A DNA stretch of 64,000 nt from Taklimakanibacter lacteus (lineage in GTDB: Bacteria; Pseudomonadota; Alphaproteobacteria; Rhizobiales; Aestuariivirgaceae): assembly GCA_003576695.1 (NCBI GenBank), contig QOZQ01000003.1, forward strand, positions 310,001 through 374,000, given 5' to 3'. The notes under the pieces are model-generated. The model was not told the DNA's origin and did not search any database. It saw only the letters and a list, made by a program, of their open reading frames with translations. Shown piece after piece: positions 13,634-35,779 of the stretch; the stretch's first letter is position 1, and the number at the start of each line of letters is the position of its first letter. Made by a program: the position numbers and the translations under genes.

Positions 13634-13681
13634 AATTGGTTGTAATTGGCAAAAATTGGTTTGCAATCGGTCTGAATTTGT
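13634..13681. promoter_or_regulatory. Five-unit helically phased heptamer array (AATTGGT)
   Basis: Units begin at 13634 (AATTGGT), 13644 (AATTGGC), 13654 (AATTGGT), 13665 (AATCGGT) and 13675 (AATTTGT). The spacings are 10, 10, 11 and 10 bp, so all units face the same side of the helix. It lies between the divergent GntR gene and the FAD oxidoreductase gene. Related arrays occur at 28851, 35144 and 35731. The bound protein is not known. Confidence 0.75.
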
Positions 13682-13726
13682 GGATCATTATGCCAGAACC
13701 GCGGGTTTTGTCCCGAAAAAAGCATT

Positions 13727-13737
13727 CAAACCGGTTC
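13727..13737. promoter_or_regulatory. CAAACCGGTTC element upstream of FAD oxidoreductase
   Basis: This 11-mer with a palindromic ACCGGT core lies 47 bp upstream of the FAD oxidoreductase start. It recurs exactly at 15157-15167 upstream of the glutamine-synthetase-like gene of the same cluster. Two copies at successive genes suggest a shared control site. Function is inferred. Confidence 0.35.
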
Positions 13738-13783
13738 AGCCCAATCTGCTCCGGCTTGGGTTCCAAGGAGGAAGGCGAGGCTC

Positions 13784-15130
13784 ATGGCAGTTCCGTCCGG
13801 CGTGAAATACGCGATCATCGGGGCCGGCATTCACGGCCTCTCGACGGCCTATCATCTGGCGCTCAAGCTCAGGGAAACAGGCAAGGGGTCGGGCAAGGAC
13901 ATCCTCGTCATCGACAAGACCTCAATCGCCGCCGGCGCCTCGGGTATCGCCTGCGGCGTCGTGCGCAACAATTACTACCAGCCGGCGATGCGCGAATTGA
14001 TGGCGCATTCGGTATCGGTGTGGGAGAGTGACCCCAAGGCCTATTCCTACCATCCCGTCGGCTATATGCAGATCTCGCCCGAAGTCATGCACCAGCAGGT
14101 CGGCACCATCTACGAGCAGCAGAAGGCCATCGGCTATTCCTCGACCTTCATCGAAGGCGAGAAGGATTCGATGACCTATATGAAAGGCCTGTTCGACGAC
14201 TGGCAGGCCAAGGGCATCACCTCGGTGCTGCACGAGAAGAAGGGTGGCTACGCCAACAACACCGCCTCGATCTACGGCCTCGCCTCCAAGGCCGAAGCCG
14301 AGGGTGTGCGCATCATGACCGGCGTCACCGTCAACGGCTTCGAGTTCGGCAGCAATTCGCAGGCCGTCACCGCGCTCAATACCAGCAAGGGCCGCATCGC
14401 CTGTGATTATGTGGTGGTCGGCGTCGGGCCCTGGGTCAACCAGGTCTGGAACATGCTCGATCTGCCGCGCACCGTCTCTATCAAGGGGCGCGACGGCAAG
14501 ATGCATGACGGGGTGCGCATGTGGAAATACTGGTGCCTCGAGGAAGGCACCCTCGGCGTCGATCCCAACATGCACAAGACCAATGACGGCAAGATGCCGC
14601 CGGTCATCCATGTCGACACCGATGCGCCGCTTTATTCCGATGTCGATGGAAGGCTTCTGACCGACAAATTGTGGGGCCTTTATTACAAGCCCGATTTCAA
14701 TTTCGGCGGCGTGCAGGGCGGCGCGTCGCCCTACAAGGTAGAGGGTGAGCCCGACAATGTCGCGATCGACCCTTACGGCCCCGATTCGCCTGATTTCATC
14801 GTCGGCGATGAGTTCATCGAGACTTGGTGCTCGATGCTGGCGCATTGCCAGAAACGTTTCGAAGGCAAGATCGGCATCTACAAGAAGGACGAGAAATCGG
14901 GCGGGCTCGGCTGCTTCACACCCGACAATTTCCCGGTCTTCGACGTCTTCCGCGATAATGTCTTCATCATCGCGGATTCCAACCACGGCTACAAGATGAT
15001 CGGCGTCGGCAAGCTCGCCGCCCAGGAGATCGTCGGCGAGAAATCGCGCCTGCTCGAGCCTTTCCGCTTCTCGCGCTATGCCGAAGGCAAGCTGCATCCC
15101 GTTTCCAACAGCCCGTTCCCGTGGAGCTGA
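13784..15130 (+). CDS. FAD-dependent amine oxidoreductase (DAO / sarcosine-oxidase-beta-like)
   Basis: 448-residue flavoprotein with an N-terminal GAGIHG dinucleotide-binding motif (13-18), an FAD-contact region IAAGASGIACG and a C-terminal HGYKMIGVGK segment typical of the DAO fold. Relatives oxidise secondary amines such as sarcosine, dimethylglycine or N-methylglutamate. AAGGAGG precedes the ATG. It heads a cluster with a gamma-glutamyl ligase and three split glutamate-synthase subunits, so an N-methylglutamate-type substrate is plausible. The partner subunits of a four-subunit dehydrogenase (mgdBCD/soxDAG) are not present, so this would be a single-subunit enzyme. Confidence 0.8.
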   Translation: MAVPSGVKYAIIGAGIHGLSTAYHLALKLRETGKGSGKDILVIDKTSIAAGASGIACGVVRNNYYQPAMRELMAHSVSVWESDPKAYSYHPVGYMQISPEVMHQQVGTIYEQQKAIGYSSTFIEGEKDSMTYMKGLFDDWQAKGITSVLHEKKGGYANNTASIYGLASKAEAEGVRIMTGVTVNGFEFGSNSQAVTALNTSKGRIACDYVVVGVGPWVNQVWNMLDLPRTVSIKGRDGKMHDGVRMWKYWCLEEGTLGVDPNMHKTNDGKMPPVIHVDTDAPLYSDVDGRLLTDKLWGLYYKPDFNFGGVQGGASPYKVEGEPDNVAIDPYGPDSPDFIVGDEFIETWCSMLAHCQKRFEGKIGIYKKDEKSGGLGCFTPDNFPVFDVFRDNVFIIADSNHGYKMIGVGKLAAQEIVGEKSRLLEPFRFSRYAEGKLHPVSNSPFPWS

Positions 15131-15156
15131 ATGCCGCCCGCCATTTCTGAATTTAC

Positions 15157-15167
15157 CAAACCGGTTC
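15157..15167. promoter_or_regulatory. Second CAAACCGGTTC element
   Basis: Exact repeat of the 11-mer at 13727-13737, here 61 bp upstream of the glutamine-synthetase-like gene. It may mark an internal promoter in the cluster under the same control. Confidence 0.35.
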
Positions 15168-15228
15168 GATCACGTTAGGCTTCCCTACGCAACCAGGAAC
15201 CGGAAAACGACAAAGAGGAAAACGCCAC

Positions 15229-16701
15229 ATGAGCGACTATGAGAAATTCATCAAGACCGACGGCCGCGATGAGCTGATCAAGCAGGTGCGCAAGAAGATC
15301 GATCAGCTCGGCATCGAATATCTCTATCTGCAGTTCGTCTCGGTCACCGGCCGCATCATGGGCAAGGGCATTCCGGCCGATCACTGGGAGAACATCGCCA
15401 ATGGCGGCTTCCAGCTCGTCTATGGCGCCACCGTCAACCTGTTCATGAACCGGCGCGGCGAATATCTGGGCTACGGTCCGGAAGCGGCCGAGCTGGTCGG
15501 CGTTCCCGAGCCTGAGACCTTCATGCAGCTGCCGTGGGACAAGCGCGTGGCGCGCATGTTCTGCACGCTGTTCCGCAATCGCGAGGAGAAGGAAAATCCC
15601 GGCGCCTATCTGACCTCCGACTGCCGCGGCAATCTCAGGCGCATCCATGACCAGTTCGAGAAGGACCATGGCCTGCGCATGCGCCACGGCACCGAGCCCG
15701 AGATGATGTGGCTCAGGAAGGACGACAACGGCAACCCGAATGGCGGCTATTCTAATCCCTACTGCTACCACATCGACCAGTTCGAGAGCCTGCGCCCCGT
15801 CTATATGCGGGTGATCGAATATGGCCGGAAAATGGGCCTCGACATGATCCAGGGCGACCACGAGGACGCGCCGGGCCAGCTCGAGCTCAATTTCAACTAT
15901 GACGATGCGCTGAGAACCGCCGACCGCCTCACCACCTACCGCCAGATCTGCGCCCAGGTGGCGCGCGAGTTCAACATCATCGCCTGCTTCATGTGCAAGC
16001 CCTTCATGGGCGTGTCGGCCAATGGCTGCCACCACAATGTCTCCTTGTGGAAGGGCGGCAAGGACGAGTTCAAGGCGCTGGGCAACGATCCCAAGAACCT
16101 GCCCGGCTTCGAGAACAATTACATGTACCGCCGCGGCGGTGAGAACACCTTCATGCCCGACACGAAGGACAAGCAAATGCCGGGCAAGATCGGCCTCTAT
16201 ACGATCGGTGGCATCGTCAAGCATCTCGGTGCCCTGACGGCGATCGGCTGCTCGACGGTGAATTCCTATCGCCGGCTGTGGGACACGGGCTTCTGGGCGC
16301 CGGTCTTCGCCGACTGGGGCTTCCAGAACCGCACAACGGGCCTGCGCATCTCGGCCCCCGGCCGCTTCGAATACCGCGCGGTCGACTCGATGGTGAACCC
16401 CTACATCATGGCGGGCGCCATCCTCAGGGCCGCCGATGACGGCATCAGCAACAAGATCGATCCGGGCAAGCCCGAGGAGCGCAACATCTATGCCGCCATG
16501 GAGGCCGGCAAGCAGGTGAAGCGCCTGCCGATGACCCTGGGCGATGCGCTGGAGGCGCTCAAGAAGGACGACGTCATCAAGTCGGCGATGCCGGGCGAGA
16601 TGCATCGCCTCTATGACGAATACAAGCGCGATGAGTGGGAGCGTTTCCTCCACACATCGACGCAGTGGGATCTCGATACCTATCTGAACTGTCTGCCCTA
16701 G
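15229..16701 (+). CDS. Glutamine synthetase family ligase, candidate gamma-glutamylmethylamide synthetase
   Basis: 490-residue glutamine-synthetase-fold ligase. Metal and ATP-site features are visible: GTEPEMMW (Glu ligands), GDHEDAPGQLELNF, NGCHHNVSLW (metal His region), NSYRRLWD and RFEYRAVDSMVNPY. These enzymes join an amine to the gamma-carboxyl of glutamate using ATP. Next to MgsABC/GlxBCD-like genes, the likely amine is methylamine (GmaS reaction), but it is longer than described GmaS/GlnT proteins (about 440 residues), so another amine or ammonia is possible. GAGGAAAAC precedes the start. Confidence 0.75.
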   Translation: MSDYEKFIKTDGRDELIKQVRKKIDQLGIEYLYLQFVSVTGRIMGKGIPADHWENIANGGFQLVYGATVNLFMNRRGEYLGYGPEAAELVGVPEPETFMQLPWDKRVARMFCTLFRNREEKENPGAYLTSDCRGNLRRIHDQFEKDHGLRMRHGTEPEMMWLRKDDNGNPNGGYSNPYCYHIDQFESLRPVYMRVIEYGRKMGLDMIQGDHEDAPGQLELNFNYDDALRTADRLTTYRQICAQVAREFNIIACFMCKPFMGVSANGCHHNVSLWKGGKDEFKALGNDPKNLPGFENNYMYRRGGENTFMPDTKDKQMPGKIGLYTIGGIVKHLGALTAIGCSTVNSYRRLWDTGFWAPVFADWGFQNRTTGLRISAPGRFEYRAVDSMVNPYIMAGAILRAADDGISNKIDPGKPEERNIYAAMEAGKQVKRLPMTLGDALEALKKDDVIKSAMPGEMHRLYDEYKRDEWERFLHTSTQWDLDTYLNCLP

Positions 16702-16738
16702 TTTCCGTAACGACGGGCATGAGAAAGGAAGGCTAATC

Positions 16739-17674
16739 ATGTGCGGGATAGCAGGGCTCATCCACCGCAACGGATCGGGGAACATCGGTCAGGAAATGAC
16801 CCAGATGCTCCAGTCGCTCAAGCATAGGGGCCCCGATTCGACCGGCTATGCGATCTACGGCACGCCGGGGCGCAATGAATATGTGATGCGCTTCAAGGTG
16901 GCCGAGCAGGAAGACATGGCGAAGGGCTTCGACATTGTCGACGAGGTGAAGCGCCGGCGTGCCAAGGTCGAGGAGCGCCTGGCCACGCTGGGCGTCCAGA
17001 TCATCGACAAGGAAGACGTCACCGACTACGCCTTTCGCTATCGCATCCAGTATGACGGCGACATGAAGAAGCTCGCCGATTATGTCGAGGATGTCGAAGG
17101 CACCGAGATACTGTCGATGGGCAATGCCCTCGAGCTCATCAAGGATCTGGGCGATGCGGCGCGCGTCGCCCAGCAGTACGACCTGCGCAAGTTCAAGGGC
17201 ACGCATGGCATCGGTCACACCCGCATGGCGACCGAGTCCGATGTCGATATCCGCTCGGCGCATCCCTACTGGGCCTATCCCTATAACGACATCGCCGTCG
17301 TCCATAACGGGCAGCTCACCAACTACTGGATGATGCGGCGTGAATTCGAGCGCCGCGGCCATCGCTTCATGTCGAACTGCGATTCGGAACTGCTCGCGGT
17401 CTACACCGCCTATAATCTCGAACATGGCGCGACGCTCGAAGAGTCGCTGCGCCAGTCGATCCAGGACATCGACGGCGTCTTCACCTATCTCGTCTCGACC
17501 AAGGACGCGCTTGGCATGGCCAAGGACACCATGGCCGCCAAGCCCATGGTGCTCTACGAAAGCGACGACCTCGTCGCTTTGGCTTCGGAAGAAGTGGCGA
17601 TCCGCGCCGTCATTCCGCACGAGATCGACACCTGGGATCCCTATGATGAGGAGGTTCGCGTATGGCGGGCTTGA
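16739..17674 (+). CDS. Class II glutamine amidotransferase subunit (MgsA/GlxB-like)
   Basis: 311 residues. The mature N-terminus would expose nucleophile Cys2 (MCGIAG), followed by GIGHTRMATES and AYPYNDIAVVHNGQL, the glutaminase-domain core of glutamate synthase. It supplies the amino or methylamino group released from a gamma-glutamyl amide to the FMN subunit. GAAAGGAAGG precedes the ATG. It overlaps the next gene by 13 bp, so the two products are probably made in a fixed ratio. Confidence 0.85.
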   Translation: MCGIAGLIHRNGSGNIGQEMTQMLQSLKHRGPDSTGYAIYGTPGRNEYVMRFKVAEQEDMAKGFDIVDEVKRRRAKVEERLATLGVQIIDKEDVTDYAFRYRIQYDGDMKKLADYVEDVEGTEILSMGNALELIKDLGDAARVAQQYDLRKFKGTHGIGHTRMATESDVDIRSAHPYWAYPYNDIAVVHNGQLTNYWMMRREFERRGHRFMSNCDSELLAVYTAYNLEHGATLEESLRQSIQDIDGVFTYLVSTKDALGMAKDTMAAKPMVLYESDDLVALASEEVAIRAVIPHEIDTWDPYDEEVRVWRA

Positions 17675-18519
17675 CGACGACGAAGCAGGCCCATGTCTCG
17701 CATGACCTGGGCATGCACACCGAGGCCTTGCGCGGCAAGACGCAACAGCGCTTCTTCGATGTGACCGAGGAGGGCGGCGGCTACGGCTACCCGGATGCGC
17801 CGGATGTCGACTTCAACAAGCGCGCCGAGCTGGATTGCGAGAAGCTCGACACCAAACAGATCAATGCCCAGCTGCGCGACCTGATGAACCGCGGCTATGG
17901 CACGATCGTGCTCAAGAATCCGGGCTCCAAGCACTCGCTGGCCGTCGGCATCCTGAACCGGCTCAATCTCTATATCGAGGGGTCCTGCGGATATTTTGCG
18001 CTCGGCCTGCTCGATGGGCCGAATGTGAAGGTCAAGGGCCGAGTCGGCTGGGCCTGCGGCGAGAACATGCTGTCGGGAACCATTCTCATCGAGAAGAATG
18101 CCGGCTCCCAGTTCGGCGCTGCGCTGCGCGGTGGCGATATCGTCTGCAAGGGGTCCGTCGGTGCGCGCACCGGCATCGACCAGAAGGGCGGCAACATCAT
18201 CGTCGGCGGCGATACGGGCTCGTTCACCGGCTTCATGATGCAGCGCGGCCGCATGGTGATCTGCGGCAATGCCGGCAAGAACCTGGGCGATTCCATGTAT
18301 GACGGCACCATCTATCTGGGCGGCGAGGCGAGGAGCCTCGGCGTCGATGCGGTGCCGGGCGAGATGACCGATCTCGATCGCGAATGGCTGACCCGCAAGC
18401 TCAAGATGTACGGGCTCTTGCCCTCCAAGGGCATCGGCCATTTCAAGAAGATCGTCGCCGGCAAGCAATTGTGGAACTACGACAATCTCGAGCCCGGCGA
18501 AAAGAAGCTGGTGCTCTGA
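17662..18519 (+). CDS. Glutamate synthase GXGXG-domain subunit (MgsB/GlxC-like)
   Basis: 285 residues, dominated by the right-handed beta-helix repeat of the glutamate synthase C-terminal domain (repeated Gly-rich turns from about 75 to 225, such as VKGRVGWACGENM and IVGGDTGSFTG). This structural domain is separate from the catalytic domains here, as in the N-methylglutamate synthase and Glx systems. It overlaps the amidotransferase gene and lies 78 bp before the FMN subunit, with an extragenic palindrome in between. Confidence 0.85.
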   Translation: MAGLTTTKQAHVSHDLGMHTEALRGKTQQRFFDVTEEGGGYGYPDAPDVDFNKRAELDCEKLDTKQINAQLRDLMNRGYGTIVLKNPGSKHSLAVGILNRLNLYIEGSCGYFALGLLDGPNVKVKGRVGWACGENMLSGTILIEKNAGSQFGAALRGGDIVCKGSVGARTGIDQKGGNIIVGGDTGSFTGFMMQRGRMVICGNAGKNLGDSMYDGTIYLGGEARSLGVDAVPGEMTDLDREWLTRKLKMYGLLPSKGIGHFKKIVAGKQLWNYDNLEPGEKKLVL

Positions 18520-18550
18520 GTTTGGTCCAGGATTCGTGGGATGAGTTTGG

Positions 18551-18578
18551 TGGGTCCCGGCTTTCGCCGGGATGACGA
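18551..18578. repeat. Extragenic palindrome, CCCGGCTTTCGCCGGG family
   Basis: The core CCCGGCTTTCGCCGGG is flanked by TGGGT and ATGACGA. It lies inside the operon between mgsB-like and mgsC-like genes. Related copies occur at 52061-52084 (partial), 58738-58763 (inverted) and 58811-58837. Confidence 0.7.
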
Positions 18579-18597: not shown

Positions 18598-20094
18598 ATG
18601 GCTAAGAAACCAGCCAAGAAAACCAAAGCGAAATCGGCACCCGTGAAAGCCAGGACGAAGGCAAGGCCGCGCGTGACAGCGCTTGCCAAGACCAATGGCA
18701 AGGGCGCGGTGAAGCGCACCGCGACCGGACTTGCAGCCCTTTCGCGCGCGCCGGCCGAGAGCAAGAAATATCTTTTGGGCTCGTCCAAGATCTTCACGCC
18801 CGAAGTGATGAACGATATCCACATCAAGTCGGAGCTCGGCCGCTATCGCATGCGCGGTTTCTCGCTGTTCAAGAAGATCCCGCATTGGGACGATCTCACC
18901 TTCCTGCCCGGCACGCTGACGCGCTTCGTCATCGAAGGCTATCGCGAGAAATGCGACACCAAGACCGTCATTGGCCCGCGCGCCAAGCGCCCGATGGTGC
19001 TCGACATTCCGGTCTACGTGACCGGCATGTCCTTCGGCGCGCTGTCCTATGAAGCCAAGATCGCGCTTGCCCGCGGCTCGACCATGGCAGGCTCCGCTAC
19101 CTGCTCGGGGGAGGGCGGCATGATCCCCGACGAGCGCCGCTACTCGATGAAATGGTTCTACCAGTGCATCCAGTCGCGCTATGGCTTCAACCCGCATCAT
19201 CTCAGGCTCGCCGACGCCTGCGAATTCTTCATCGGCCAGGGCTGCAAGGTCGGTCTCGGCGGCCATCTGATGGGCCAGAAGGTGACCGACCAGGTCGCCG
19301 AGATGCGCTCGCTCCCCGCCGGCATCGACCAGCGCTCGCCCGCCCGCCATCCGGACTGGCTGGGGCCCGACGATCTCGCCCTCAAGATCCAGGAGATCCG
19401 CGAGGCGACGAACTGGGAGATCCCGATCCAGCTCAAGCTCGGTGCCGCGCGTGTCTATGACGATGTGCGCATGGCGGTGAAGTGCGATCCGGATTCGATC
19501 TATATCGACGCGATGGAGGGCGGCACCGGCGCCGGTCCCCATATTGCGACCGAGGACACCGGCGTCCCCGGCATCGCAGCCATACGCGAGGCGCGCCGCG
19601 CCATCGATGAGCTCGGCAAGAAGGGCGAGATTTCGCTCGTCTATGCCGGCGGCATCAGGAATGGCGGCGACGTCGCCAAGGCCCTGGCCTTGGGCGCCGA
19701 CGCGATCGCGATCGGCCACTCGGTGCTGATGGCCCTCAACTGCAACAAGCATATCGAGGGCGTCACCGACTATCCGTCCGAGATCGGCGTCGATGCCGGC
19801 TTCTGCTATCACTGCCACACCGGCCGTTGCCCGGTCGGCGTCGCCACCCAGGATCCGGTGCTGCGCCAGCGCCTCGACCCCGACAAGGCGGCCGAGCGCG
19901 TCTACAACTTCCTCCACACGCTCACCATGGAAGCCCAGTTGCTGGCCCGTGCCTGCGGCAAGACGAATATCCATTCGCTCGAGCCTGAGGATCTCGCCGC
20001 CCTCACCATGGAAGCTTCCGCCATGTGCAAGGTGCCGCTCGCCGGCACCAACTACACGGTCGGCATGGAAGGCGGGAATTACCACAAATACTGA
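18598..20094 (+). CDS. FMN-binding glutamate synthase domain subunit (MgsC/GlxD-like)
   Basis: 498 residues. From about residue 90 it is the FMN/Fe-S synthase domain of glutamate synthase: GMSFGALS, GEGGMIPDER, the GTGAGP phosphate-binding loop, YAGGIRNGGDVAKALALGADAIAIG and a CYHCHTGRC cluster for the 3Fe-4S centre. It would form (N-methyl)glutamate from 2-oxoglutarate using the group passed from the amidotransferase subunit. The first about 48 residues are an unusual Lys/Ala/Thr-rich, disordered, highly basic extension absent from the ordinary domain. Confidence 0.88.
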   Translation: MAKKPAKKTKAKSAPVKARTKARPRVTALAKTNGKGAVKRTATGLAALSRAPAESKKYLLGSSKIFTPEVMNDIHIKSELGRYRMRGFSLFKKIPHWDDLTFLPGTLTRFVIEGYREKCDTKTVIGPRAKRPMVLDIPVYVTGMSFGALSYEAKIALARGSTMAGSATCSGEGGMIPDERRYSMKWFYQCIQSRYGFNPHHLRLADACEFFIGQGCKVGLGGHLMGQKVTDQVAEMRSLPAGIDQRSPARHPDWLGPDDLALKIQEIREATNWEIPIQLKLGAARVYDDVRMAVKCDPDSIYIDAMEGGTGAGPHIATEDTGVPGIAAIREARRAIDELGKKGEISLVYAGGIRNGGDVAKALALGADAIAIGHSVLMALNCNKHIEGVTDYPSEIGVDAGFCYHCHTGRCPVGVATQDPVLRQRLDPDKAAERVYNFLHTLTMEAQLLARACGKTNIHSLEPEDLAALTMEASAMCKVPLAGTNYTVGMEGGNYHKY

Positions 20095-22926: not shown

Positions 22927-23400
22927 TTACGATGAGGAGTTAGAGTTGTTCCGCACCTTGATCAGGTGATCCAGCGACCAGGCGCCCGCACCTCTGGCGA
23001 TGAGAATGAGAAAGCATGCGGCCCAGGTGCCATGCGTCGGCCAGGCATCCGGATAGACGAAGATCTCGATGACGAGCGTCATGACAAGGAGCGCCAGCGC
23101 GGCGAAGCGTGTCGCAAGCCCCAGCACCAGCAGGATGGGGAAAAAATGCTCGGCGAAAGCGGCGAGATGCGCTGCGATCGCGGGATCGACAAGCGGCAGC
23201 CGATATTCCTCCCGGAACAGATAGACGGCATTGTCGGAGACCTGCCAGCCGTCGAGCTTGGTCTGGCCCGATTGCCAGAAGACGGCGGCCGGGAAGACAC
23301 GCGCGGCAAGCGCGATGAGCGAATAGGGAATCTGCTCGCACAGGCCGATGGCCTTCCTGATCAGGGCCGCTGCCGGAATATTTGCGATCGCCTTGTCCAT
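22927..23400 (-). CDS. DoxX-family membrane protein of bufferin operon
   Basis: 157 residues with about four hydrophobic helices and the DoxX pattern ([19 protein letters not shown], then [22 protein letters not shown]). DoxX proteins often accompany MNIO/bufferin clusters as terminal genes. The ATG directly follows the stop of the DUF2063 gene, so it is the last gene of the operon. Its role, possibly membrane redox or assembly, is not established. Confidence 0.82.
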
Positions 23401-24177
23401 TCACGCCTCCAACGGGGGTTCGGAGAGGATGTCGATGACGGCGCCCGAGCGCAGGAGATCGGCGAGATTGCCGCCGAGATCGAAGGTCTCGTCCACCGTG
23501 AGGGCTTTCCCGAAAGCGCCGGCCAGCCCGTCGCCCGCCATCAGCGCGAGGAGAAAGGCGGTGCTGCCGGGGGCGATACGACGGGTGAGGACGGCAAGCT
23601 CCGGCCGCGTGACGAGCGCGTCTTCCGCCTGCCAGTCGGCAATTGGTGTCAGAGGCTGCTCGCCCGAATTCATCGACCAGATGGTGACGACGGGATAGGC
23701 CGACCGTAGCACCGAAGCGGCCGGGTGGAAGATGAATGTGAGTCCCGCCATCCGTTCAGGCGCGATCCGGGTGAGGACTTGCGGGTCGACCGAGGCGATG
23801 TCCGCTGCGTGATAGGCGCGCACCTGCGCGTCCTCCAGCCGCACGATATCCGCGAGATATGGCACGCTTGCCGCCGGCGCAAAGCCCGCGACGAAATCGG
23901 CGAAGCTATTGCCATAATGTAGAAGCACCGGCGAGGACGGCGGATGCTCGAGCACATAGTCGCGCGCCATCGCGGTGAAGAAGTCTTCCCCCACGATCTT
24001 CTCCGTCACGGGGAAGCGTGCCGCGAGCGCGCGGGCAAGTCCCGTGGCCACATTGTTGCGATAGACGCCATAGCGCCGCACCGGCTCCGCACCCGTCCAG
24101 GATCTGAGACCGGACGGCGGCGGCTTCGAACGATCGAGCAGGGGGGCCGCGAAACTGGCTTGCGTGACCTGGGTCAT
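23401..24177 (-). CDS. DUF2063 partner protein of the MNIO (BufC-type)
   Basis: 258 residues. The N-terminal half matches the putative DNA-binding DUF2063 domain (RRYGVYRNNVATGLARALAARFPV). In related RiPP systems this protein acts as the recognition partner that delivers the precursor peptide to the MNIO enzyme. It starts 7 bp after the MNIO stop and ends directly against the DoxX gene. The family is recognised clearly; the partner role comes from studied homologous systems. Confidence 0.85.
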   Translation of the reverse strand: MTQVTQASFAAPLLDRSKPPPSGLRSWTGAEPVRRYGVYRNNVATGLARALAARFPVTEKIVGEDFFTAMARDYVLEHPPSSPVLLHYGNSFADFVAGFAPAASVPYLADIVRLEDAQVRAYHAADIASVDPQVLTRIAPERMAGLTFIFHPAASVLRSAYPVVTIWSMNSGEQPLTPIADWQAEDALVTRPELAVLTRRIAPGSTAFLLALMAGDGLAGAFGKALTVDETFDLGGNLADLLRSGAVIDILSEPPLEA

Positions 24178-24184
24178 GGCGCCC

Positions 24185-25039
24185 TCACGCGGCGGCCGGG
24201 CGACGGGCCCGATCGAGGATGGCTTGTGCCGCCTGCGCCTCGGCCCGCAATACGGGCCAAGCCGGAATATTGTCGTCCCACTCGACGAGACTCGCCACGG
24301 GGCCTGAGCGCGCGATCACACTTTCATAGAGTGCCCAGACCGGATCGGCGACTTGTTTGTCATGCGTGTCGATGAGGAGAGGTGCGCCCGCTTCATCGAT
24401 CGTCTCGGCATGGCCGCTGAGATGGATCTCGCCGACATGCTGGAGCGGGAAGGAGGCGAGATAGGCTTCCGCGTCGAGCTTGTGATTGGTCGCCGACACG
24501 AACACATTGTTGACGTCGAGCAGCAGGCCGCAACCGGTGCGGCGTGCGATCTCGGCAAGGAATTCGGTTTCCGGGATCGTGCTTTCGGCGAAGAGCAGAT
24601 AGGTGGCTGGGTTCTCGAGCAGCATCTGCCGGTTGAGGGTCGACTGCACCTGGTCGACATGCTCGACGATGTGGTCGAGTGTTTCATGCGTATAGGGCAA
24701 CGGCAGGAGATCGTTCAGGAACACCGTATCATGGCTCGACCAGGCGAGATGCTCGGAGAAGCTCTCAGGCTCGTAGCGATCGCACAGGCTCTTGAGTCTC
24801 GCGAGGTGGTCGCGGTCGAGCGGTTGCATCGAGCCGATCGACAGACCGACGCCATGCAGCGAGAGCGCATAGTTCTCTCTGATGTATCTGAGATGTGCAT
24901 GCGGCGGGCCGCCATCGCCCATGTAGTTCTCGGCATGGACTTCGAAGAAGCCGATCGGTTGCCGGCCTTCCCTGATGGCGGAGAAATGCTCGGGCTTGAA
25001 GCCGACCCCCGACTGGCGAGGCAAGTGGCTGAGTTGCAT
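24185..25039 (-). CDS. MNIO (DUF692) multinuclear non-heme iron oxidase, bufferin maturase
   Basis: 284-residue TIM-barrel enzyme of the DUF692/MNIO family. Metal-ligand candidates are visible: His62 (LHGVG), SEH (95-97), ENP (142-144), LDVNN (174-178), EIHLSGH (204-210) and DTHD (224-227). Homologues use iron to modify cysteines of precursor peptides, into thiooxazoles in bufferins. GGAGGG precedes the ATG; a longer frame to 25258 would run into the precursor gene. The two precursor genes lie just upstream with a strong hairpin between. Confidence 0.88.
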
Positions 25040-25063
25040 GGCTTCCCTCCGGTTACTGGGTTG

Positions 25064-25094
25064 GCGGCGAAGCCCGAACAACGAGCTTCGCCGC
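25064..25094 (-). promoter_or_regulatory. Intercistronic hairpin between precursor genes and MNIO gene
   Basis: GCGGCGAAGC (25064-25073) and GCTTCGCCGC (25085-25094) form a perfect 10-bp stem with an 11-base loop. It sits after the second precursor stop and before the MNIO start. Such a stem could protect the upstream precursor mRNA or partly stop transcription, so precursors exceed enzymes. There is no U-run, so a strong intrinsic terminator is unlikely. Confidence 0.65.
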
Positions 25095-25103
25095 GATTTC
25101 GTG

Positions 25104-25388
25104 TCAGGAAGGCCGGGTAATGGGGGCAAGCGAGCCTGGCCCAAGGGGCGTCTGCATCGTGACGCAGGTGCCCTTGGGAACGAGCTTCCAGGCATTGCCC
25201 TGGTAGTCGACCTTCGAGGTCCCGGCGCATGTGGTGCCGGGCCCGGCGGCGCAGTCATTCTGGCCCTTGAGCGCCACCCCGTAGCACTTCTCCTTCTCGT
25301 CGGCGGCCGACGCCTGAGGAAGGCTCAGGAGAGAAACGGCGGTGGCGAGCGAAGCGGCCAGGATGGCTTTTGAGGCGATGCCGGCCAT
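25104..25388 (-). CDS. Bufferin precursor peptide 2 (DUF2282 family)
   Basis: 94 residues: a Sec signal peptide (about 1-29, ending PQASAAD) and a core with four conserved cysteines at 35, 46, 54 and 75 in the bufferin pattern ([14 protein letters not shown]... KLVPKGTC). The cysteines are the sites modified by the MNIO, giving a copper-binding periplasmic peptide. Its ATG shares an A with the TAA of precursor 1 (TAATG), so translation is coupled. It is a paralogue of precursor 1. Confidence 0.9.
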
Positions 25389-27805: not shown

Positions 27806-28234
27806 ATGGAAACCCAGGAACTGCATCGCGGACGGCTGATCGATCACATCCAGCTTGTGGTGAGGGATCTCGGCGCCAGCCGCCGCTTCTATGAAGCGAT
27901 TTTCAAAGTGCTCAATATTCCGATAGGCGGCAGTGCCAAGGATTATTTCTGGGCGGACGAGCTGTTTGTCTCGACCGCCGACAGCCAGGCAGCACAGGGC
28001 AAACTGACCGGCCGCCATCATCTCGCCTTCCAGGCCAAGGATCGGGCGATGGTCGAGGCCTTCCACAAGGCCGGAGCTGAGAATGGCGGCTGGGACAATG
28101 GTGCTCCGGGCGAACGTCCCTATCATCCGGGTTATTACGCGGCGTTCCTGCTCGATCCTGATGGCAATAATATCGAGGCCGTCTATCACGGCGAAGCCAG
28201 GCGCAGCGCAGCTTCGGTTGAGATCAGGTTCTAG
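27806..28234 (+). CDS. VOC-family (glyoxalase/dioxygenase fold) protein
   Basis: 142 residues with one vicinal-oxygen-chelate module: IDHIQLVVRDLGASRRFYEAIF, HHLAF and LLDPDGNNIEAVYHG, holding the His/His/Glu-type metal sites of the fold. The reaction is unknown. It overlaps the convergent downstream gene by 4 bp. Confidence 0.82.
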   Translation: METQELHRGRLIDHIQLVVRDLGASRRFYEAIFKVLNIPIGGSAKDYFWADELFVSTADSQAAQGKLTGRHHLAFQAKDRAMVEAFHKAGAENGGWDNGAPGERPYHPGYYAAFLLDPDGNNIEAVYHGEARRSAASVEIRF

Positions 28235-28797
28235 CCCGGCCAGGGCTCCGCCATCGCATTCTTCCAGTTGGGCCGGAAGCTCAGCACCTCGACGTCATTG
28301 CCGAGGCCAGGATTGAACAGCCGGTTGTGCCAGAGACTTGCCTCGCGCGAGATATCGCGCGCCGCCAGCCGCTTGACCGCGCAGGCCAGGCGGAAGCGCT
28401 GCGCATATTGCTCGAAGTCGAGGAGCACGGTCTTGAGCTTGACGAGCCGATCGGCCATCGCCGAACCCTTGGCGAAGACGGCGGTGAGTTCGTCCGAGAA
28501 GAGTTCCGGCAACTGATAGTAATCCGCCGCCAGATATTTGATCCCGGCCTCGAAGGCCAGACGGTGGTCATGGGTCTTCTGCAGTTGGAACCTGAAGAAA
28601 GCGGTACTCTCCTCCGGCTGCTCGGGAACCAGGAGGACGGTCATCTCGGGCATGACGATCTCGCCCCTGAGGCTCGAAACCTGTGGCCGGAAGCCCGGCA
28701 TGGGCACCCCGCCATGGTCGCGCATGGCCATCTGCCTGAGCCGGCATTGCCAGGCGATAAAGCTGGTCTTGAGTTCGCTGTTGGAGAGTCGTTTCAT
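28231..28797 (-). CDS. Unknown 188-residue protein divergent from tmm
   Basis: Not recognised. Soluble and mostly helical, with no signal peptide. AAGAAGG precedes the ATG at 28797. It is divergent from the trimethylamine monooxygenase gene and shares the 158-bp intergenic region holding a phased AATTGGT array, so it may belong to the same regulon. Four-base overlap with the convergent VOC gene. Confidence 0.7.
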   Translation of the reverse strand: MKRLSNSELKTSFIAWQCRLRQMAMRDHGGVPMPGFRPQVSSLRGEIVMPEMTVLLVPEQPEESTAFFRFQLQKTHDHRLAFEAGIKYLAADYYQLPELFSDELTAVFAKGSAMADRLVKLKTVLLDFEQYAQRFRLACAVKRLAARDISREASLWHNRLFNPGLGNDVEVLSFRPNWKNAMAEPWPG

Positions 28798-28850
28798 GGC
28801 CTTCTTTCTAGACCAATGTCGCACCGCAGCATGCGTCTTTACGGTTGCAA

Positions 28851-28889
28851 AATTGGTTCAGAATTGGCCTAATAGTGGTCAGAATTGGT
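28851..28889. promoter_or_regulatory. Four-unit helically phased heptamer array upstream of tmm
   Basis: Units begin at 28851 (AATTGGT), 28862 (AATTGGC), 28873 (TAGTGGT) and 28883 (AATTGGT), spaced 11, 11 and 10 bp. Three of four match AATTGG exactly. It lies 67 bp upstream of the tmm start and 54 bp from the divergent unknown gene. Confidence 0.75.
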
Positions 28890-28955: not shown

Positions 28956-30326
28956 ATGGCAAGAGTAGCAGTGATTGGCGCGGGTCCGTCCGGCCTGGCG
29001 CAGTTGCGGGCCTTTCAGTCGGCCAGGAAGAAGGGCGCCAAGATCCCCGAAGTGGTCTGCTTCGAGAAGCAGGCCGACTGGGGCGGCCTGTGGAACTACA
29101 CCTGGCGCACTGGCCTCGATGAATATGGCGAGCCCGTCCATGGCAGCATGTACCGCTATCTGTGGTCGAACGGCCCCAAGGAATGTCTCGAATTCGCCGA
29201 CTACACTTTCGAGGAGCATTTCGGCAAGCCGATCGGCTCCTACCCGCCGCGCGCCGTGCTGTGGGACTATATCAAGGGCCGCGTCGAGAAAGCGGGCGTG
29301 CGCAAATGGGTGCGCTTCTCGACGCCCGCCCGCATGGTGACCTACAGCAAGAAGACGAAGAAATTCACCGTCACCGTGCATGACCGCAAGAAGGACAGGA
29401 TGTATTCGGAGGAGTTCGATTACGTCGTCGTCGCTTCCGGCCACTTCTCGACCCCCAATGTTCCCTATTTCGAAGGGTTGAAGACCTTCAACGGCCGCGT
29501 GATGCATTCCCATGATTTCCGCGACGCGCTCGAATTCAAGGGCAAGGATATCCTCGTGGTCGGGCGCAGCTATTCGGCCGAGGATATCGGCTCGCAATGC
29601 TGGAAATATGGGGCGAAGTCGGTCACCGCGAGCTATCGCTCGAAGCCCATGGGCTTCAACTGGCCGAAGAATTTCGAGGAACGTCCGCTGCTGCAGCGGC
29701 TCGAGAACAAGACCGCTTATTTCAAGGACGGCTCATCGAAAGAGGTCGATGCGATCATCCTATGCACCGGCTATCTGCACCACTTCCCGTTCCTGCCCGA
29801 CGATCTGCGCCTCAAGACGGCGAACCGGATGTGGCCATTGGGCCTCTATAAGGGCGTCGTGTGGGAGGAAAACCCGAAGCTCTTCTATATCGGCATGCAG
29901 GACCAGTTCTACACCTTCAACATGTTCGACGCCCAGGCCTGGTATGCGCGCGATGTCATCATGGGACGCATCAAACTGCCGTCCAAGGACAAGATGATCA
30001 AGCACAGCAAGGCCTGGCGCAAGCGCGAGGAGAAGCTCGAGAATGCCGAGCAGATGATCTGGTTCCAGGGCGACTATGTGAAGGAGCTCCTGGCCGAGAT
30101 CGACTATCCGAAGTTCGACATCGAGGCGACGAACAAGACCTTCATGGAGTGGGAGCACCACAAGGTCGAGAACATCATGGGCTTCCGCAACAATGCCTAT
30201 CGCTCCCTGATGACCGGCAACATGTCGCCCAAGCATCATACGACCTGGGTTGACGCCATGGATGATTCCATGGAGACCTATCTGGGCGATGGCAAATCGG
30301 GAGCCCACAGGAAGGCCGCCGAGTAA
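28956..30326 (+). CDS. tmm: Trimethylamine monooxygenase (bacterial FMO)
   Basis: 456-residue flavin monooxygenase that converts trimethylamine to TMAO with NADPH and O2. The FAD motif GAGPSG (8-13), the [15 protein letters not shown] segment, WSNGPKE with the conserved Asn72, the FMO signature region [12 protein letters not shown] (178-189) and the NADPH loop VGRSYSAED (202-210) match known Tmm proteins such as that of Methylocella along the whole length. GGAGGAGAG precedes the ATG. A phased AATTGGT array lies upstream. The Tdm gene 2.4 kb downstream supplies the next pathway step. Confidence 0.92.
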
Positions 30327-31401: not shown

Positions 31402-31408
31402 AAGTCAT

Positions 31409-32260: not shown

Positions 32261-32278
32261 GCTACGTTTTCTCAACAA

Positions 32279-32330
32279 CCCTCACCCTGAGGTGCCCGGC
32301 AAAGCCGGGCCTCGAAGGGTCCATCAGGAT
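32279..32330. repeat. Left inverted palindromic repeat flanking GIY-YIG gene
   Basis: About 52 bp starting CCCTCACCCTGAGGTG, with a GCCCGGC...GCCGGGC hairpin, then CTCGAAGGGTCC and TCAGGAT. The reverse complement of 32646-32695 matches it apart from the hairpin core and one base (CCATCAGGAT versus CCTTCAGGAT). Confidence 0.85.
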
Positions 32331-32343
32331 AGATAGAACACAT

Positions 32344-32652
32344 ATGCCTTGGGTGTACATTCTGCACTGTGCCGACGGTACCTACTATACAGGCATGACG
32401 CGCGCTGAAGAGCCAGACCAACGCCTATCTGAACATCAAATGAAACTCTCTCCGAGCGCATTCACGGCGTCGCGGCTTCCGGTTCGCTTGGTTTACTCCG
32501 AACATTTTGTCTTGATCGCGGACGCAATCTTCGCGGAGCGGAAAATCAAGGGCTGGTCGCGCGCCAAGAAAGAGGCGCTGATCAGAGGCGATTGGGACTT
32601 GATCCAGGTGCTGTCGAAACGAAGTGGCGGGAAGGCTAGAGCCCCATCCTGA
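32344..32652 (+). CDS. Small GIY-YIG nuclease family protein
   Basis: 102 residues forming one GIY-YIG domain: VYIL at 4-7, YYTGM with an early Tyr, an Arg in the DQRLSEH helix, and Glu in AIFAERKIKGW as the metal-binding acidic residue. Domain-only members of this size (YhbQ/UPF0213-like) have unsettled roles. The gene sits inside a 417-bp unit bounded by near-identical inverted palindromes, and its stop codon lies in the right repeat, so it looks like cargo or driver of a small mobile unit. Confidence 0.85.
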   Translation: MPWVYILHCADGTYYTGMTRAEEPDQRLSEHQMKLSPSAFTASRLPVRLVYSEHFVLIADAIFAERKIKGWSRAKKEALIRGDWDLIQVLSKRSGGKARAPS

Positions 32653-32695
32653 AGGACCCTTCGAGGGCCGCTACGCGGCCACCTCAGGGTGAGGG
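32646..32695. repeat. Right inverted palindromic repeat flanking GIY-YIG gene
   Basis: Inverted counterpart of 32279-32330: ATCCTGAAGGACCCTTCGAG, a GGCCGC...GCGGCC hairpin, then CACCTCAGGGTGAGGG. The hairpin core differs from the left copy but keeps pairing. It contains the TGA stop of the GIY-YIG gene. Confidence 0.85.
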
Positions 32696-32725
32696 GTGTG
32701 GAGAGAAGCGTGTGTGGGACCGTCT

Positions 32726-35110
32726 CTAGCTCCGCGGCCTTGTCTTTTCCGGATCGAAATGCGGGAAGCGCGCGATGCGGGCCGGCAGGCGCTTCTGATG
32801 GCCGTCGAGCTTGCCGATCTCGACCTCGGTGCCGATCTCGGCATGGGTGACATCGACGCGCGCCAGCGCGATGTTCTTCTTGAGCAGCGGCGAGCGCGTT
32901 CCGCTGGTCACGACGCCGATCTGGGCGCGGCCGATATGGATGCAATCGCCATGGCCGACCGCCTCATTGGCGTCGATATCGAGGCCGACGAGCTTGTGGC
33001 GCGGATGCTCCTTGCGCTCGACGAGTGCTGCCTTGCCGATGAAGTCGTCGGTCTTGCTCTTGAGCGGCACGGTGAAACCGATGCCAGCCTCGAAGGGATC
33101 GATCTGGTCGGAGAACTCGTAATTGAAGAAGATGAGCCCGGCCTCGATGCGCAACATGTCGAGGGCCTCGAGACCCAGCGGCGACAGGCCATGCTTCTGC
33201 CCCGCCTCCCACACCGCGTCGAAGACGGCCGTCGCGTCCTTGGGATGGCAGAAGACTTCATAACCGAGCTCGCCCGTATAGCCGGTGCGCGACACGACGA
33301 TGGGGACACCCTCGAAGCCACCGATGCGCCCGACGGTGAAGCGGAACCAGTCGAGCTCGCCGATGGCGGTCTGAGCCGGAGCCGTCCACACGATCTCCTT
33401 GAGAAGCTCACGCGATTTCGGGCCCTGCACGGCGATATTGTGCAACTGATCGGTCGATGAGCGCACCCAGGCCTTGAGGCCCATCTTCTCCGCCTGCTGG
33501 CGCAGCCAGATGCCGCTATACTCATCGCCGCCGATCCAGCGGAAATTGTTCTGGGCGATGCGGAACACGGTTCCGTCATCGATCATGCCGCCATGCTCGT
33601 AGCACATCGCGGTATAGACGACCTGGCCCGGCGACAATTTGCGGATATCGCGCGTCAGGCAATATTGCAGCAGCGCCTCGGCATCGGGGCCGGTCACCTC
33701 GAATTTGCGCAACGGCGACAGGTCCATTACCGCGACGCGCTCGCGGCAGGCCCAGTATTCCTCGACCGGTCCGTCATTGTTGAAGCGCTGCGGCAGCCAG
33801 AAGCCGCGATATTCGGTATAGTTGCGGGTGAGCGCAGAAAAGCGCGGATGGAACGCGGTCTCGCGCGTGAGCTGGGGATCGGCGTCTGGGGTCATGCGAT
33901 AGGCCACCGCTCTCGAGAATTTTTCTTTGTCGGAATAAGTGCGCACATGGATGTCGCTCGGATCCCAGCCATTGCCCACATTGATGTCATCGGGACAGGC
34001 CGATGACACGCAGACGAGATCGGTCAAAGCGCGCATCAGCACATAGTCGCCGGGTCTCGACCAGGCTTCATCGAAGGTGATCTGGTTATGGTCGTCGATC
34101 CGGGTGTTGTAGAAATAGTTGATCGCTTCCCAGCCTTTGCGCGCGGCGACACCATGGGGAGCGAGCGCGCGGTTGAAATTCTCCGTGCAGTTCACATGCC
34201 CAGGATAGCCGACATCGTCATAGTAGCGGCTGTTGCAGGCGGTGGCGAAGAAGTCATGCCGCCCGACCGTGTCCTGCACGACTTCCACCAGGGGTTCGAA
34301 GTCGAAGCCGAACATCTTCGAGAGCAGCCCCGGTGTCGGATAGGCGCGTCCGGTCAGCGTGCGCGTCACCGTGCCATCGAGGGCATTCTCCAGGCCCTTA
34401 TCCAGCTTGCGCTGCGAGAAGCATTGGAAGTCCGTCATTTGCCGGCCGGAGACATCGATGATCTGGATGTATTCGCCGGCGCGCACGAGATAGGCCTTCG
34501 CCGTTCTTGCCCCGACGCGGATTTCCTGCAGGGGATCGGCGAGCGGCTCGGGCAGCACATCGAGGGTCTTGCCTGGCGCGGGCTTCGCCCGCTCGATCCT
34601 GACCTCGATGGGGGTCGCCGTGTCCTGCAGTTCGGCATCCATCTTGGCCCCGGGCGCGCCGATGACGAGAGTGCCATCGCGCCCCGCCGTGAAGTTTTGG
34701 CGGCTGCCGGCGGGCGACATCGTGCCGAACAGGCGAATCGCCCTGGCTTGCCCCAGATCGATGTGACGCCGCGCCAATGCCTTGCGGGCCCGCAGCGCTG
34801 AGTCATTGTCTTCGGCAAGCATTGCCTTGAGGCCGGTCGGATCGCCGGCGCCTTTAGCGCCCAGGATGGCGGGGTCGCTTTGACCGTCGGGACCTGCGGC
34901 GATGATCTCGCAAGGCTGCCCGCCTTCGATATCTGTCACAGTGATGCGGTCGCCGGCTTTGATCTCCAGGGAAAGAGACCCGCCACCCGGAATCCTGTAG
35001 CGTTCCGTGCCCGGGGGCAGGGCCGGCATGCCGGGCCTGAGGATGATGCTGGGCCGCGGTGCGATGCTGGCGATGGGATGGTTCTGAAAGCTCTTTTCGA
35101 ACCTGTTCAT
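32726..35110 (-). CDS. tdm: Trimethylamine N-oxide demethylase (DUF1989 + GcvT domains)
   Basis: 794 residues with the two-domain layout of TMAO demethylase. An N-terminal region ends in a DUF1989 metal domain (about 195-385; Cys292, Cys367 and Cys372 are candidate zinc ligands). A GcvT-like tetrahydrofolate domain follows (about 400-790; RVAVMDLSPLRKFEV, GYTGELGYEVF). The enzyme cleaves TMAO to dimethylamine and formaldehyde, the latter captured on THF. It lies near tmm and beside a phased AATTGGT array. The ATG at 35110 has no Shine-Dalgarno sequence. Confidence 0.87.
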   Translation of the reverse strand: MNRFEKSFQNHPIASIAPRPSIILRPGMPALPPGTERYRIPGGGSLSLEIKAGDRITVTDIEGGQPCEIIAAGPDGQSDPAILGAKGAGDPTGLKAMLAEDNDSALRARKALARRHIDLGQARAIRLFGTMSPAGSRQNFTAGRDGTLVIGAPGAKMDAELQDTATPIEVRIERAKPAPGKTLDVLPEPLADPLQEIRVGARTAKAYLVRAGEYIQIIDVSGRQMTDFQCFSQRKLDKGLENALDGTVTRTLTGRAYPTPGLLSKMFGFDFEPLVEVVQDTVGRHDFFATACNSRYYDDVGYPGHVNCTENFNRALAPHGVAARKGWEAINYFYNTRIDDHNQITFDEAWSRPGDYVLMRALTDLVCVSSACPDDINVGNGWDPSDIHVRTYSDKEKFSRAVAYRMTPDADPQLTRETAFHPRFSALTRNYTEYRGFWLPQRFNNDGPVEEYWACRERVAVMDLSPLRKFEVTGPDAEALLQYCLTRDIRKLSPGQVVYTAMCYEHGGMIDDGTVFRIAQNNFRWIGGDEYSGIWLRQQAEKMGLKAWVRSSTDQLHNIAVQGPKSRELLKEIVWTAPAQTAIGELDWFRFTVGRIGGFEGVPIVVSRTGYTGELGYEVFCHPKDATAVFDAVWEAGQKHGLSPLGLEALDMLRIEAGLIFFNYEFSDQIDPFEAGIGFTVPLKSKTDDFIGKAALVERKEHPRHKLVGLDIDANEAVGHGDCIHIGRAQIGVVTSGTRSPLLKKNIALARVDVTHAEIGTEVEIGKLDGHQKRLPARIARFPHFDPEKTRPRS

Positions 35111-35143
35111 ATGGGAAGGCTAACGCTAACAGCTACGGAAAGC

Positions 35144-35171
35144 AAATGGTATGAAATTGGGCGTGATTGGT
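35144..35171. promoter_or_regulatory. Three-unit phased heptamer array between tdm and flavin reductase
   Basis: Units begin at 35144 (AAATGGT), 35155 (AATTGGG) and 35165 (GATTGGT), spaced 11 and 10 bp. It starts 34 bp upstream of the tdm ATG and 83 bp upstream of the flavin reductase ATG. Weaker than the arrays at 13634 and 28851 but with the same period and strand. Confidence 0.6.
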
Positions 35172-35253
35172 TTTGCGGTAAAGCTACGCGCGAAAACCTA
35201 TCCATTTATTGCCATCCGGCGCTAAAAGCGCAGATGTTTCTCGGAGAAGCCGA

Positions 35254-35739
35254 ATGACTGCGCCCATCGACGTCCGCGCCTTCCGCACTGCCCTTGGCGG
35301 CTTCGCGACCGGTGTCACCATCGTCACGACCCGTGGTCCCAAGGGCGAGCTTGTCGGCAACACGGTCAACTCTTTCAGCGCGGTTTCCCTCGACCCGCCG
35401 CTCGTCCTGTGGAGCCTCGGCAAGCGCGCTTACAGCTTTAAATCATACCTTTCGGCAGATCATTTCGCGGTCAATGTGCTGCGTGAGGGCCAGGATGACA
35501 TATCGCGCCGCTTTGCCCGCTCGCTCGACGACAAATGGGCTGGCATCGACTACGAGACCTGGGAGACCGGCTGTCCGATCCTGCCCAATGCGCTCGCCGT
35601 CTTCGAATGCCGTATGGCCTATACCTATCAGGGCGGCGACCATGTGATTTTTGTCGGCGAGGTCACCAATTTCGATCACGATCCCCATGGCCGCCCCTTG
35701 ATCTTCTGGCATGGCGATTATCGGTTGGTAACCAAATAG
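35254..35739 (+). CDS. Flavin reductase family (NADH:FMN) protein
   Basis: 161-residue split-barrel flavin reductase (RutF/HpaC type): FATGVTIVTT, GNTVNSFSAVSLDPPLVLWSL, FAVNVLREGQ and GDHVIFVGEV. It supplies reduced FMN/FAD to a monooxygenase partner. GGAG precedes the ATG at 35254. It is divergent from tdm and lies between two phased arrays. Tmm needs no separate reductase, so the partner is probably another flavin- or iron-dependent demethylating oxygenase not in this window. Confidence 0.85.
   Translation: MTAPIDVRAFRTALGGFATGVTIVTTRGPKGELVGNTVNSFSAVSLDPPLVLWSLGKRAYSFKSYLSADHFAVNVLREGQDDISRRFARSLDDKWAGIDYETWETGCPILPNALAVFECRMAYTYQGGDHVIFVGEVTNFDHDPHGRPLIFWHGDYRLVTK
35724..35734. promoter_or_regulatory. 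Perfect palindrome TTGGTAACCAA at end of flavin reductase gene
   Basis: An 11-base perfect palindrome made of two opposed TTGGT half sites just before the stop codon, abutting the first unit (35731) of the downstream array. It may be the strongest binding site of that array. Confidence 0.45.
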
Positions 35740-35779
35740 AGCCCAATTATTACCACTTGAAACCAAATTCATACCATTT
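35731..35779. promoter_or_regulatory. Five-unit phased heptamer array (ACCAATT orientation) upstream of APC permease
   Basis: Units begin at 35731 (ACCAAAT), 35742 (CCCAATT), 35752 (ACCACTT), 35762 (ACCAAAT) and 35773 (ACCATTT), spaced 11, 10, 10 and 11 bp. This is the complement orientation of the other arrays. It precedes the APC permease by about 230 bp. Confidence 0.7.

Follow-up and report, generated by a model that had tools for sequence, protein, structure and literature searches.

A helically phased AATTGGT array at the methylated-amine genes of Taklimakanibacter lacteus and its association with a GntR/FCD regulator gene

Four heptamer arrays and the genes beside them

The window analysed here, a stretch of 64,000 nucleotides of Taklimakanibacter lacteus (contig QOZQ01000003.1, positions 310,001-374,000 of assembly GCA_003576695.1), carries genes assigned to the breakdown of methylated amines and, beside them, four arrays of a heptamer close to AATTGGT. 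Array 1 (13634-13681, plus strand; five units starting at 13634, 13644, 13654, 13665 and 13675) lies 6 bp from the start codon of gntR and reads toward dao, between gntR and a divergent operon composed of dao, a gmaS-like gene and three mgsABC-like genes. Array 2 (28851-28889, plus strand; units at 28851, 28862, 28873 and 28883) stands upstream of tmm. Array 3 (35144-35171, plus strand; units at 35144, 35155 and 35165) is placed between tdm, from which it reads away, and a flavin reductase gene. Array 4 (35731-35779, minus strand; five units in the form ACCAAWT at 35731, 35742, 35752, 35762 and 35773) lies upstream of a trimethylamine N-oxide (TMAO) permease gene and reads away from it, its first 9 bases being shared with the 3' end of the flavin reductase open reading frame. 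The spacers between the units differ from one another.

The gntR gene (12872-13627, minus strand, ATG start at 13627) encodes the proposed binder of the arrays, with a winged helix-turn-helix (HTH) and an FCD domain (Pfam GntR, 7e-20; FCD, 2.9e-28). On the other side of array 1, all on the plus strand, lie dao (13784-15130), coding for a flavin adenine dinucleotide-dependent oxidoreductase of family PF01266 which adjoins gmaS-mgs in many relatives, a gmaS-like glutamine synthetase gene (15229-16701) and the three mgsABC-like genes (16739-17674, 17662-18519 and 18598-20094), recognised by Pfam; the gmaS and mgs names and the role given to dao come from domains and pathway knowledge. Further on are found tmm, for trimethylamine monooxygenase (28956-30326, plus strand; NF058570, 861 bits for a cut-off of 675), tdm, for trimethylamine N-oxide demethylase (32726-35110, minus strand; NF053776, 1253 bits, cut-off 1100), the flavin reductase-like gene (35254-35739, plus strand; PF01613) and the APC-type TMAO permease gene (35976-37814, plus strand; NF053774, 829 bits, cut-off 690). 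Judged by their domains, the genes flanking the arrays would together cover the uptake and breakdown of trimethylamine and TMAO as well as the N-methylglutamate branch for methylamine.

The first-pass annotation of this DNA had reported these arrays and named these neighbours; all 17 units are present at their coordinates and the Pfam and NCBIfam searches return the genes that it had named, while its spacing of the blocks, 13-20 kb, is inaccurate, the gaps from array to array being 15.2, 6.3 and 0.6 kb. When both strands of the window were scanned for chains of at least three units (5 of 7 matches per unit, steps of 10 or 11 bp), only the four arrays, of 5, 4, 3 and 5 units, were returned. In 60 first-order Markov sequences, chance chains of three units occur 0.33 times per 64 kb and those of four units 0.017 times, about 0.35 in all, and none is longer. 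The genome-wide scan that the annotation had called for was run with a 28-bp, three-unit profile (R1) built from 20 arrays, 3 of them from the window, as a strict IUPAC pattern missed arrays 1 and 2, which hold C variants and other letters. Over the 5.78 Mb of the genome the top three matches of R1 are arrays 3, 1 and 4 (E 0.002-0.004), and no comparable match lies outside the window, where the best reaches 13.5 bits (E 0.7); since array 2 itself scores E 6.5, the search could have overlooked a single weak array elsewhere.

Geometry, conservation and spread of the arrays

The spacing of the units was examined with no step imposed in 68 regions upstream of gntR genes at least 40% identical to that of the window; as these regions are taken from related species, they are not independent of one another. 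Sites matching the unit at 6 of 7 positions number 307 in these regions versus 64 in shuffles. Pairs on the same strand are 6 at 9 bp, 23 at 10 bp, 58 at 11 bp and 5 at 12 bp, with none at 13-15 bp; they reappear at 20-22 bp (48), 31-33 bp (26) and 41-45 bp (17), all other distances up to 45 bp accounting for 8. Because the counts are highest at multiples of the helix turn, the units stand mainly head to tail and in phase with the helix, and the phasing noticed at the outset holds. Inverted pairs at the offset of the PdhR site (+10) are absent from the 68 regions, which contain 81 direct pairs with a step of 10-11 bp and, at offsets other than that of PdhR, 59 inverted pairs. We therefore rejected a palindromic reading, and with it the usual FadR operator with its TKGT/ACMA boxes, in agreement with the remark that the arrays are not the customary GntR site.

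Within the genus, the window was compared with four genomes, gaps being scored as mismatches. Identity to the window for arrays 1 to 4 is 99, 99, 93 and 91% in the units, 100, 93, 89 and 70% in the spacers, and 85, 61, 44 and 66% in the flanks (39% for array 3 when equal regions are taken), so that the units are better kept than the flanks in all four intergenic regions. One of the genomes examined (G003) possesses two consecutive permease genes, each with its own array, an internal repeat of the finding.

Outside the genus, the arrays recur in other Hyphomicrobiales and in some Kiloniellaceae, before the same pathway genes: the recurrent targets are gntR/dao, gmaS-mgsABC, tmm, tdm, the TMAO permease gene or an OpuAC-type ABC transporter. 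Relatives of the GntR protein (E at most 1e-30) are encoded in 32 of 150 genomes, that of T. lacteus included. Thirty of their loci were fetched, and a chain of at least three units lies within about 1.5 kb of gntR in 21 of the 22 loci with at least 51% identity and in none of the 8 with at most 49%; in one of them (L051) the chain is downstream of gntR, and L046, which has no chain of three or more units, shows a two-unit pair when read as L119 in the broader scan. A weight matrix derived from the 17 units of the window alone, with chains scored in bits, was then applied to 40 stretches from gntR-positive and some other genomes. It places chains in front of the permease gene, gntR/dao, gmaS, tmm and tdm, and some elsewhere; two stretches (L080 and L105) yield no chain, and Markov sequence of equal length (554,721 bases) yields none of at least 20 bits.

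A broader scan took one genome per GTDB species and retained the best 80 of 148 loci; these include loci from Aestuariivirga, Methyloceanibacter, Methyloligella, Anderseniella, Kiloniellaceae, Rhodospirillales and some Gammaproteobacteria. They contain 80 arrays of at least 20 bits (30 with two units only) versus 1 in an equal length, 1.26 Mb, of Markov sequence, and 65 of the 80 arrays lie at most 500 bp upstream of gntR or of a pathway gene. The presence of an array of at least 20 bits within 700 bp upstream of gntR follows the identity of the GntR protein: all 18 loci at 60% or more have one (of at least three units in 15), as do 14 of the 23 at 50-60% (9), 8 of the 27 at 40-50% (2) and 1 of the 8 below 40% (none), gntR being unmatched in the remaining 4. 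The 20-bit cut-off is strict, for loci counted as lacking an array, such as L145, L146, L151 and L160-L165, show by reading 2-3 TTGGT units at 9-11 bp, L164 excepted. On a quick tree of the proteins, with long branches and 27 of its 79 inner branches open, the array label requires 9 changes where shuffled labels require 25, and arrays accompany 32 of the 43 rows in the clade to which the window protein belongs. Profile R1 has matches in 16 of 32 gntR-positive versus 6 of 118 gntR-negative genomes (p 1.6e-8), a split which is partly circular because R1 contains arrays from 14 of the genomes on which it was run; at the E-value used (0.05), about 7 false genomes would be expected in 150. Two of the six gntR-negative genomes have arrays at pathway genes, G028 (a genome 78% complete) before gmaS and G111 near tmm; the stretches fetched from the remaining four gave no match to a pathway gene of the window. 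Nine named genomes searched with R1 gave a single weak match.

Arrays were also counted at tmm. Fifty-two genomes have a Tmm over the cut-off; in the 45 included (seven were not), an array of at least 20 bits within 400 bp of tmm was found in 10 of 23 gntR-positive versus 1 of 22 gntR-negative genomes (p 0.004), five of the ten being of one genus, so that the events are fewer than the genomes. The likeness of tmm does not explain the arrays, because most negatives have the more similar enzyme: Tmm is 78-83% identical to that of the window in 19 of the 22 gntR-negative genomes and 67-69% in four array-bearing positives. The negative genome with an array is again G111, where a GntR relative of 29% identity is encoded beside tmm. 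Among ten tmm loci reached from a Rhodobacteraceae locus, no array of at least 20 bits at 10-11 bp steps was detected. Taken together, these comparisons give good support to the proposal of the first-pass annotation, that of a single regulon with the GntR protein as the probable binder.

Several loci add to the range of targets. Loci L091 and L095 have arrays before an operon that runs into tmm and codes for a binding protein of OpuAC type, an ATPase and a permease, perhaps a TMAO transporter like tmoXWV of Ruegeria. In L095 (9035-9943, Anderseniella-like), a two-unit array also stands directly upstream of a carbon-nitrogen hydrolase gene, a possible further member of the regulon. In G086 (L204), an array separates two long open reading frames which each match part of Tdm at 29-30%. 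Locus L217, in one of the genomes reached from a Rhodobacteraceae locus, has a two-unit pair (18.6 bits, 1445-1461) just upstream of tmm and, downstream, three ATTTGGT-like units at 9-bp steps (3501-3525). Two Hyphomicrobium loci (L180, 8898-9110; L182, 8881-9090) show two opposite arrays between a tmm/tdm block, which in L182 includes a permease gene, and a GntR gene of 31-33% identity. In Paracidovorax (L188, 7255-7380), two pairs of AATTGGT/AAATGGT-like units stand before a GntR-type gene of 26% identity and may be a further GntR operator made of direct repeats.

Other genes of the window deserve mention. The gene divergent from tmm (28231-28797, minus strand) meets no Pfam family over the cut-off; since many loci have a relative of it close to mgs or tmm, and an array stands upstream of five of these relatives, it may be a hitherto unrecognised member of the pathway. 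The flavin reductase is 84-91% identical in the four genomes of the genus and has one further match, of 48%, in L187. A lone DAO-type flavoprotein gene, dao itself, occupies 13784-15130 where mgdABCD would be expected, and is a candidate for a single-subunit N-methylglutamate dehydrogenase; two SoxB-type genes score over the cut-off elsewhere in the genome. The dimethylamine step could not be placed, because the whole genome contains no match to PF11927, the family of the HODM-type dimethylamine monooxygenase. Between arrays 1 and 2, the block 22927-25258 contains a DoxX gene, a DUF2063 gene and an MNIO bufferin maturase gene (BufB, over the cut-off).

A regulator proposed to read the arrays, and its alternatives

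The window protein belongs by its domains to the FadR/FCD subfamily of GntR regulators (PF00392, 70.9 bits; PF07729, 99.2 bits; both over cut-off), and the domain search returned no AraC-type HTH. The best NCBIfam models are NanR, LldR and PdhR, all far below their cut-offs (NanR 106.5 bits for 260, PdhR 97 bits for 330). Its structure model has a mean pLDDT of 82 and a pTM of 0.58, residues 1-27 being of low confidence. In the fold search, the first PDB match by E-value is NanR (TM 0.43) and a higher TM of 0.56 is given by the streptococcal GntR protein 6az6; in a profile search, 6az6 and 7c7e rank before NanR. The wing, RRVGSGTFI, is close to the RRQGGGTFV of PdhR and unlike that of NanR. 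Residues D163, H167, H215, H237 and R119 are invariant in 20 orthologues; the first four correspond to the zinc ligands D172, H176, H222 and H244 of NanR, and R119 to its carboxylate-binding R128.

Promoter-like sites accompany three of the four arrays. TTGAAA-17-TAGCAT (35757-35785, plus strand; 1 found by the scanner, 0.6 expected) overlaps array 4, and its TAGCAT is kept in 6 of 6 aligned sequences. TTGCAA-17-CCTAAT (28845-28873, plus strand), seen by eye where the scanner found none, has units 1-2 of array 2 in its spacer. GGGACA-16-CATAAT (13687-13714, minus strand; 1 found, 0.2 expected) would serve gntR and has array 1 just downstream. No tdm promoter was found in the window. Over 55 regions, the best promoter-like core overlaps an array in 36 versus 17.1 expected by random placement (gmaS 14/17, gntR 14/25, dao 6/8, others 2/5).

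We propose, with a probability of roughly 0.7, that the four arrays are the operators of one methylated-amine regulon, bound cooperatively by the GntR/FCD protein acting mainly as a repressor. The mechanism that we infer starts with the reading of each AATTGGT unit by a PdhR-like winged helix of the protein encoded at 12872-13627. The units would be bound head to tail at one per helix turn. Neighbouring molecules, aligned on one face of the DNA, would cooperate. The bound protein would most likely repress gntR itself, the N-methylglutamate operon, tmm, tdm and TMAO uptake, because bound arrays would cover or closely follow the core promoters. A carboxylate derived from methylamine, bound by the FCD domain at its metal site, would then release the protein. 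A carboxylate is plausible since the zinc ligands and the carboxylate-binding arginine match those of NanR; gamma-glutamylmethylamide and N-methylglutamate are guesses at its identity.

Several observations weigh against this proposal. The promoter calls are weak, and the TTGG of the units partly resembles a -35 box, which inflates the overlap count somewhat. A profile made from the window alone (R2) finds 5 of the 32 gntR-positive genomes, all of one genus, and 1 of the 118 negative ones. Thirteen of the 23 gntR-positive genomes have no 20-bit array within 400 bp of tmm; in some (L091, L095) the array stands instead before the ABC-transporter operon leading into tmm, but L080, which holds tmm and tdm of a gntR-positive genome, is devoid of any array. 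An N-terminal extension like that of NanR appears not to be conserved: start codons assigned by a rough rule give it 32 residues in the window protein and 3 to 64 in relatives, with only 9 in L127, whose array has five units, so that such an extension is unsupported as a general source of cooperativity. The arrays face away from tdm in six of the loci read (L066, L069, L071, L078, L101 and L202) and from the permease gene in the genus of the window. Finally, a second GntR protein, of TmoR type, may share the arrays.

The orientation of the arrays bears on a first alternative, according to which the GntR protein would bind the arrays as an activator of the pathway genes, in the manner of TmaR in Ruegeria, and would repress only itself. 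In the 80 loci the arrays point toward dao in 20 of 23 cases, gmaS in 26 of 28 and tmm in 2 of 3, and away from gntR in 44 of 50. Such a fixed orientation would suit a contact with the polymerase, and most of the pathway genes of Ruegeria are activated according to PMC13390433. However, the arrays overlap or follow the promoter-like cores instead of standing upstream of them, and the orientation is reversed at tdm, which makes activation throughout unlikely in our opinion, though deserving of serious attention. A pure roadblock does not account for the mixed orientation either, toward dao, gmaS and tmm but away from tdm and the permease gene, and this leaves room within the repressor model for activation at some promoters.

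The second GntR protein mentioned above would be of the TmoR-like, tmm-adjacent kind and would bind the same arrays, alone or with the first. This would account for G111, where gntR is unmatched at E 1e-30 and a 29% relative and an array are present at tmm (L205, 4782-7319), and for the Hyphomicrobium loci in which relatives of 31-33% accompany arrays near a permease gene; at least two genomes, G007 and G105, have both kinds. Against it stand the arrays at the main gntR in all of its closest orthologues (60% identity or more), the separate branch occupied by the tmm-adjacent kind in the quick tree and, in T. lacteus itself, a second-best match of only 35% identity (E 2e-31). We regard this alternative as rather improbable. 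The OmpR/PhoB and SARP families typically use heptamers repeated directly every 11 bp, and a regulator unrelated to GntR could be imagined on the arrays; their unit equals a GntR/FCD half-site and their presence follows gntR, which leaves such a regulator very little likelihood. That the repeats are inherited tandem DNA devoid of function is scarcely credible, for although their number varies and 30 of the 80 arrays have two units only, the units are kept above their flanks, the spacers differ among units and the same genes are concerned in many families.

An extension of the repressor model may be put forward tentatively, the odds being somewhat against it: FCD-type GntR proteins would stack on PdhR half-sites along one face of the DNA, one per turn, as on a scalable track, and the number and quality of the units at each promoter, here five, four, three and five, would set the order in which the breakdown steps are released.

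Relation to known operators and significance

The first-pass annotation recognised no known operator, which is incorrect as regards the unit: AATTGGT is the exact half-site of the Escherichia coli PdhR box AATTGGTnnnACCAATT (PMC7660256). Its view of the direct-repeat layout as unusual for GntR stands, since FadR-subfamily sites are normally palindromes with TKGT/ACMA boxes, NanR being the stated exception (PMC4494728); the layout is nevertheless not without precedent, because NanR, also an FCD regulator, binds direct repeats (PMC8012715, PMC4494728). NanR occupies three GGTATA repeats as three cooperative dimers, the cooperativity requiring a 32-residue N-terminal extension (PMC8012715), and its repeats in strain MG1655 start 9 and 8 bp apart. 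The present system resembles that of NanR by its FCD-type GntR protein, its head-to-tail operator, its zinc ligands and its fold match; it differs by its unit, its step of 10-11 bp, its two to six repeats, its wing, its genes and the extension, which appears not to be conserved in proteins of the window type. With PdhR it shares an identical half-site and a similar recognition wing, whereas the PdhR box is one palindrome serving another regulon and here a direct array is found. As the unit is the PdhR half-site, the wing PdhR-like and NanR a reader of direct repeats, the reading of the unit looks PdhR-like and the layout NanR-like, the step being its own.

In Ruegeria pomeroyi, the AraC-type TmaR is the master regulator, mainly an activator, of tmm, tdm, gmaS-mgs and mgd, and responds to a product beyond methylamine, with which our guess of a carboxylate inducer is in keeping; TmoR, a GntR repressor whose gene is usually found by tmm, acts there on tmm only (PMC13390433). 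The main text of that article does not contain the words "binding site". The system proposed here resembles that of TmaR in placing one master regulator over the pathway and differs in the family of this regulator and its main mode of action. TmoR (SPO1553), compared here by description and not by sequence, is likewise a GntR-family regulator of the trimethylamine pathway, but the window gntR lies beside dao, 15 kb from tmm, and outside the tmm-adjacent branch.

Among the open-licence PubMed Central papers that our searches listed, none had a title or start of an abstract describing a GntR direct-repeat array system for methylated amines. The unit is thus known and the layout appears not to be, which would make the arrays a variant of the GntR/FCD operator. 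If the scalable track were true, it would constitute a mode of GntR operator distinct from both the palindrome and the 8-9 bp repeats of NanR, spread across several orders of Proteobacteria. The only study of whole-pathway control that we found, for a marine Roseobacter (PMC13390433), describes an AraC master regulator, and a different one appears to operate in many Hyphomicrobiales and their relatives. Because the operator code is easily scanned, the members of the regulon, unknown genes included, would be predictable from sequence. The arrays would also offer a natural series of operators, of two to six units, for asking how a dimeric regulator reads direct repeats.

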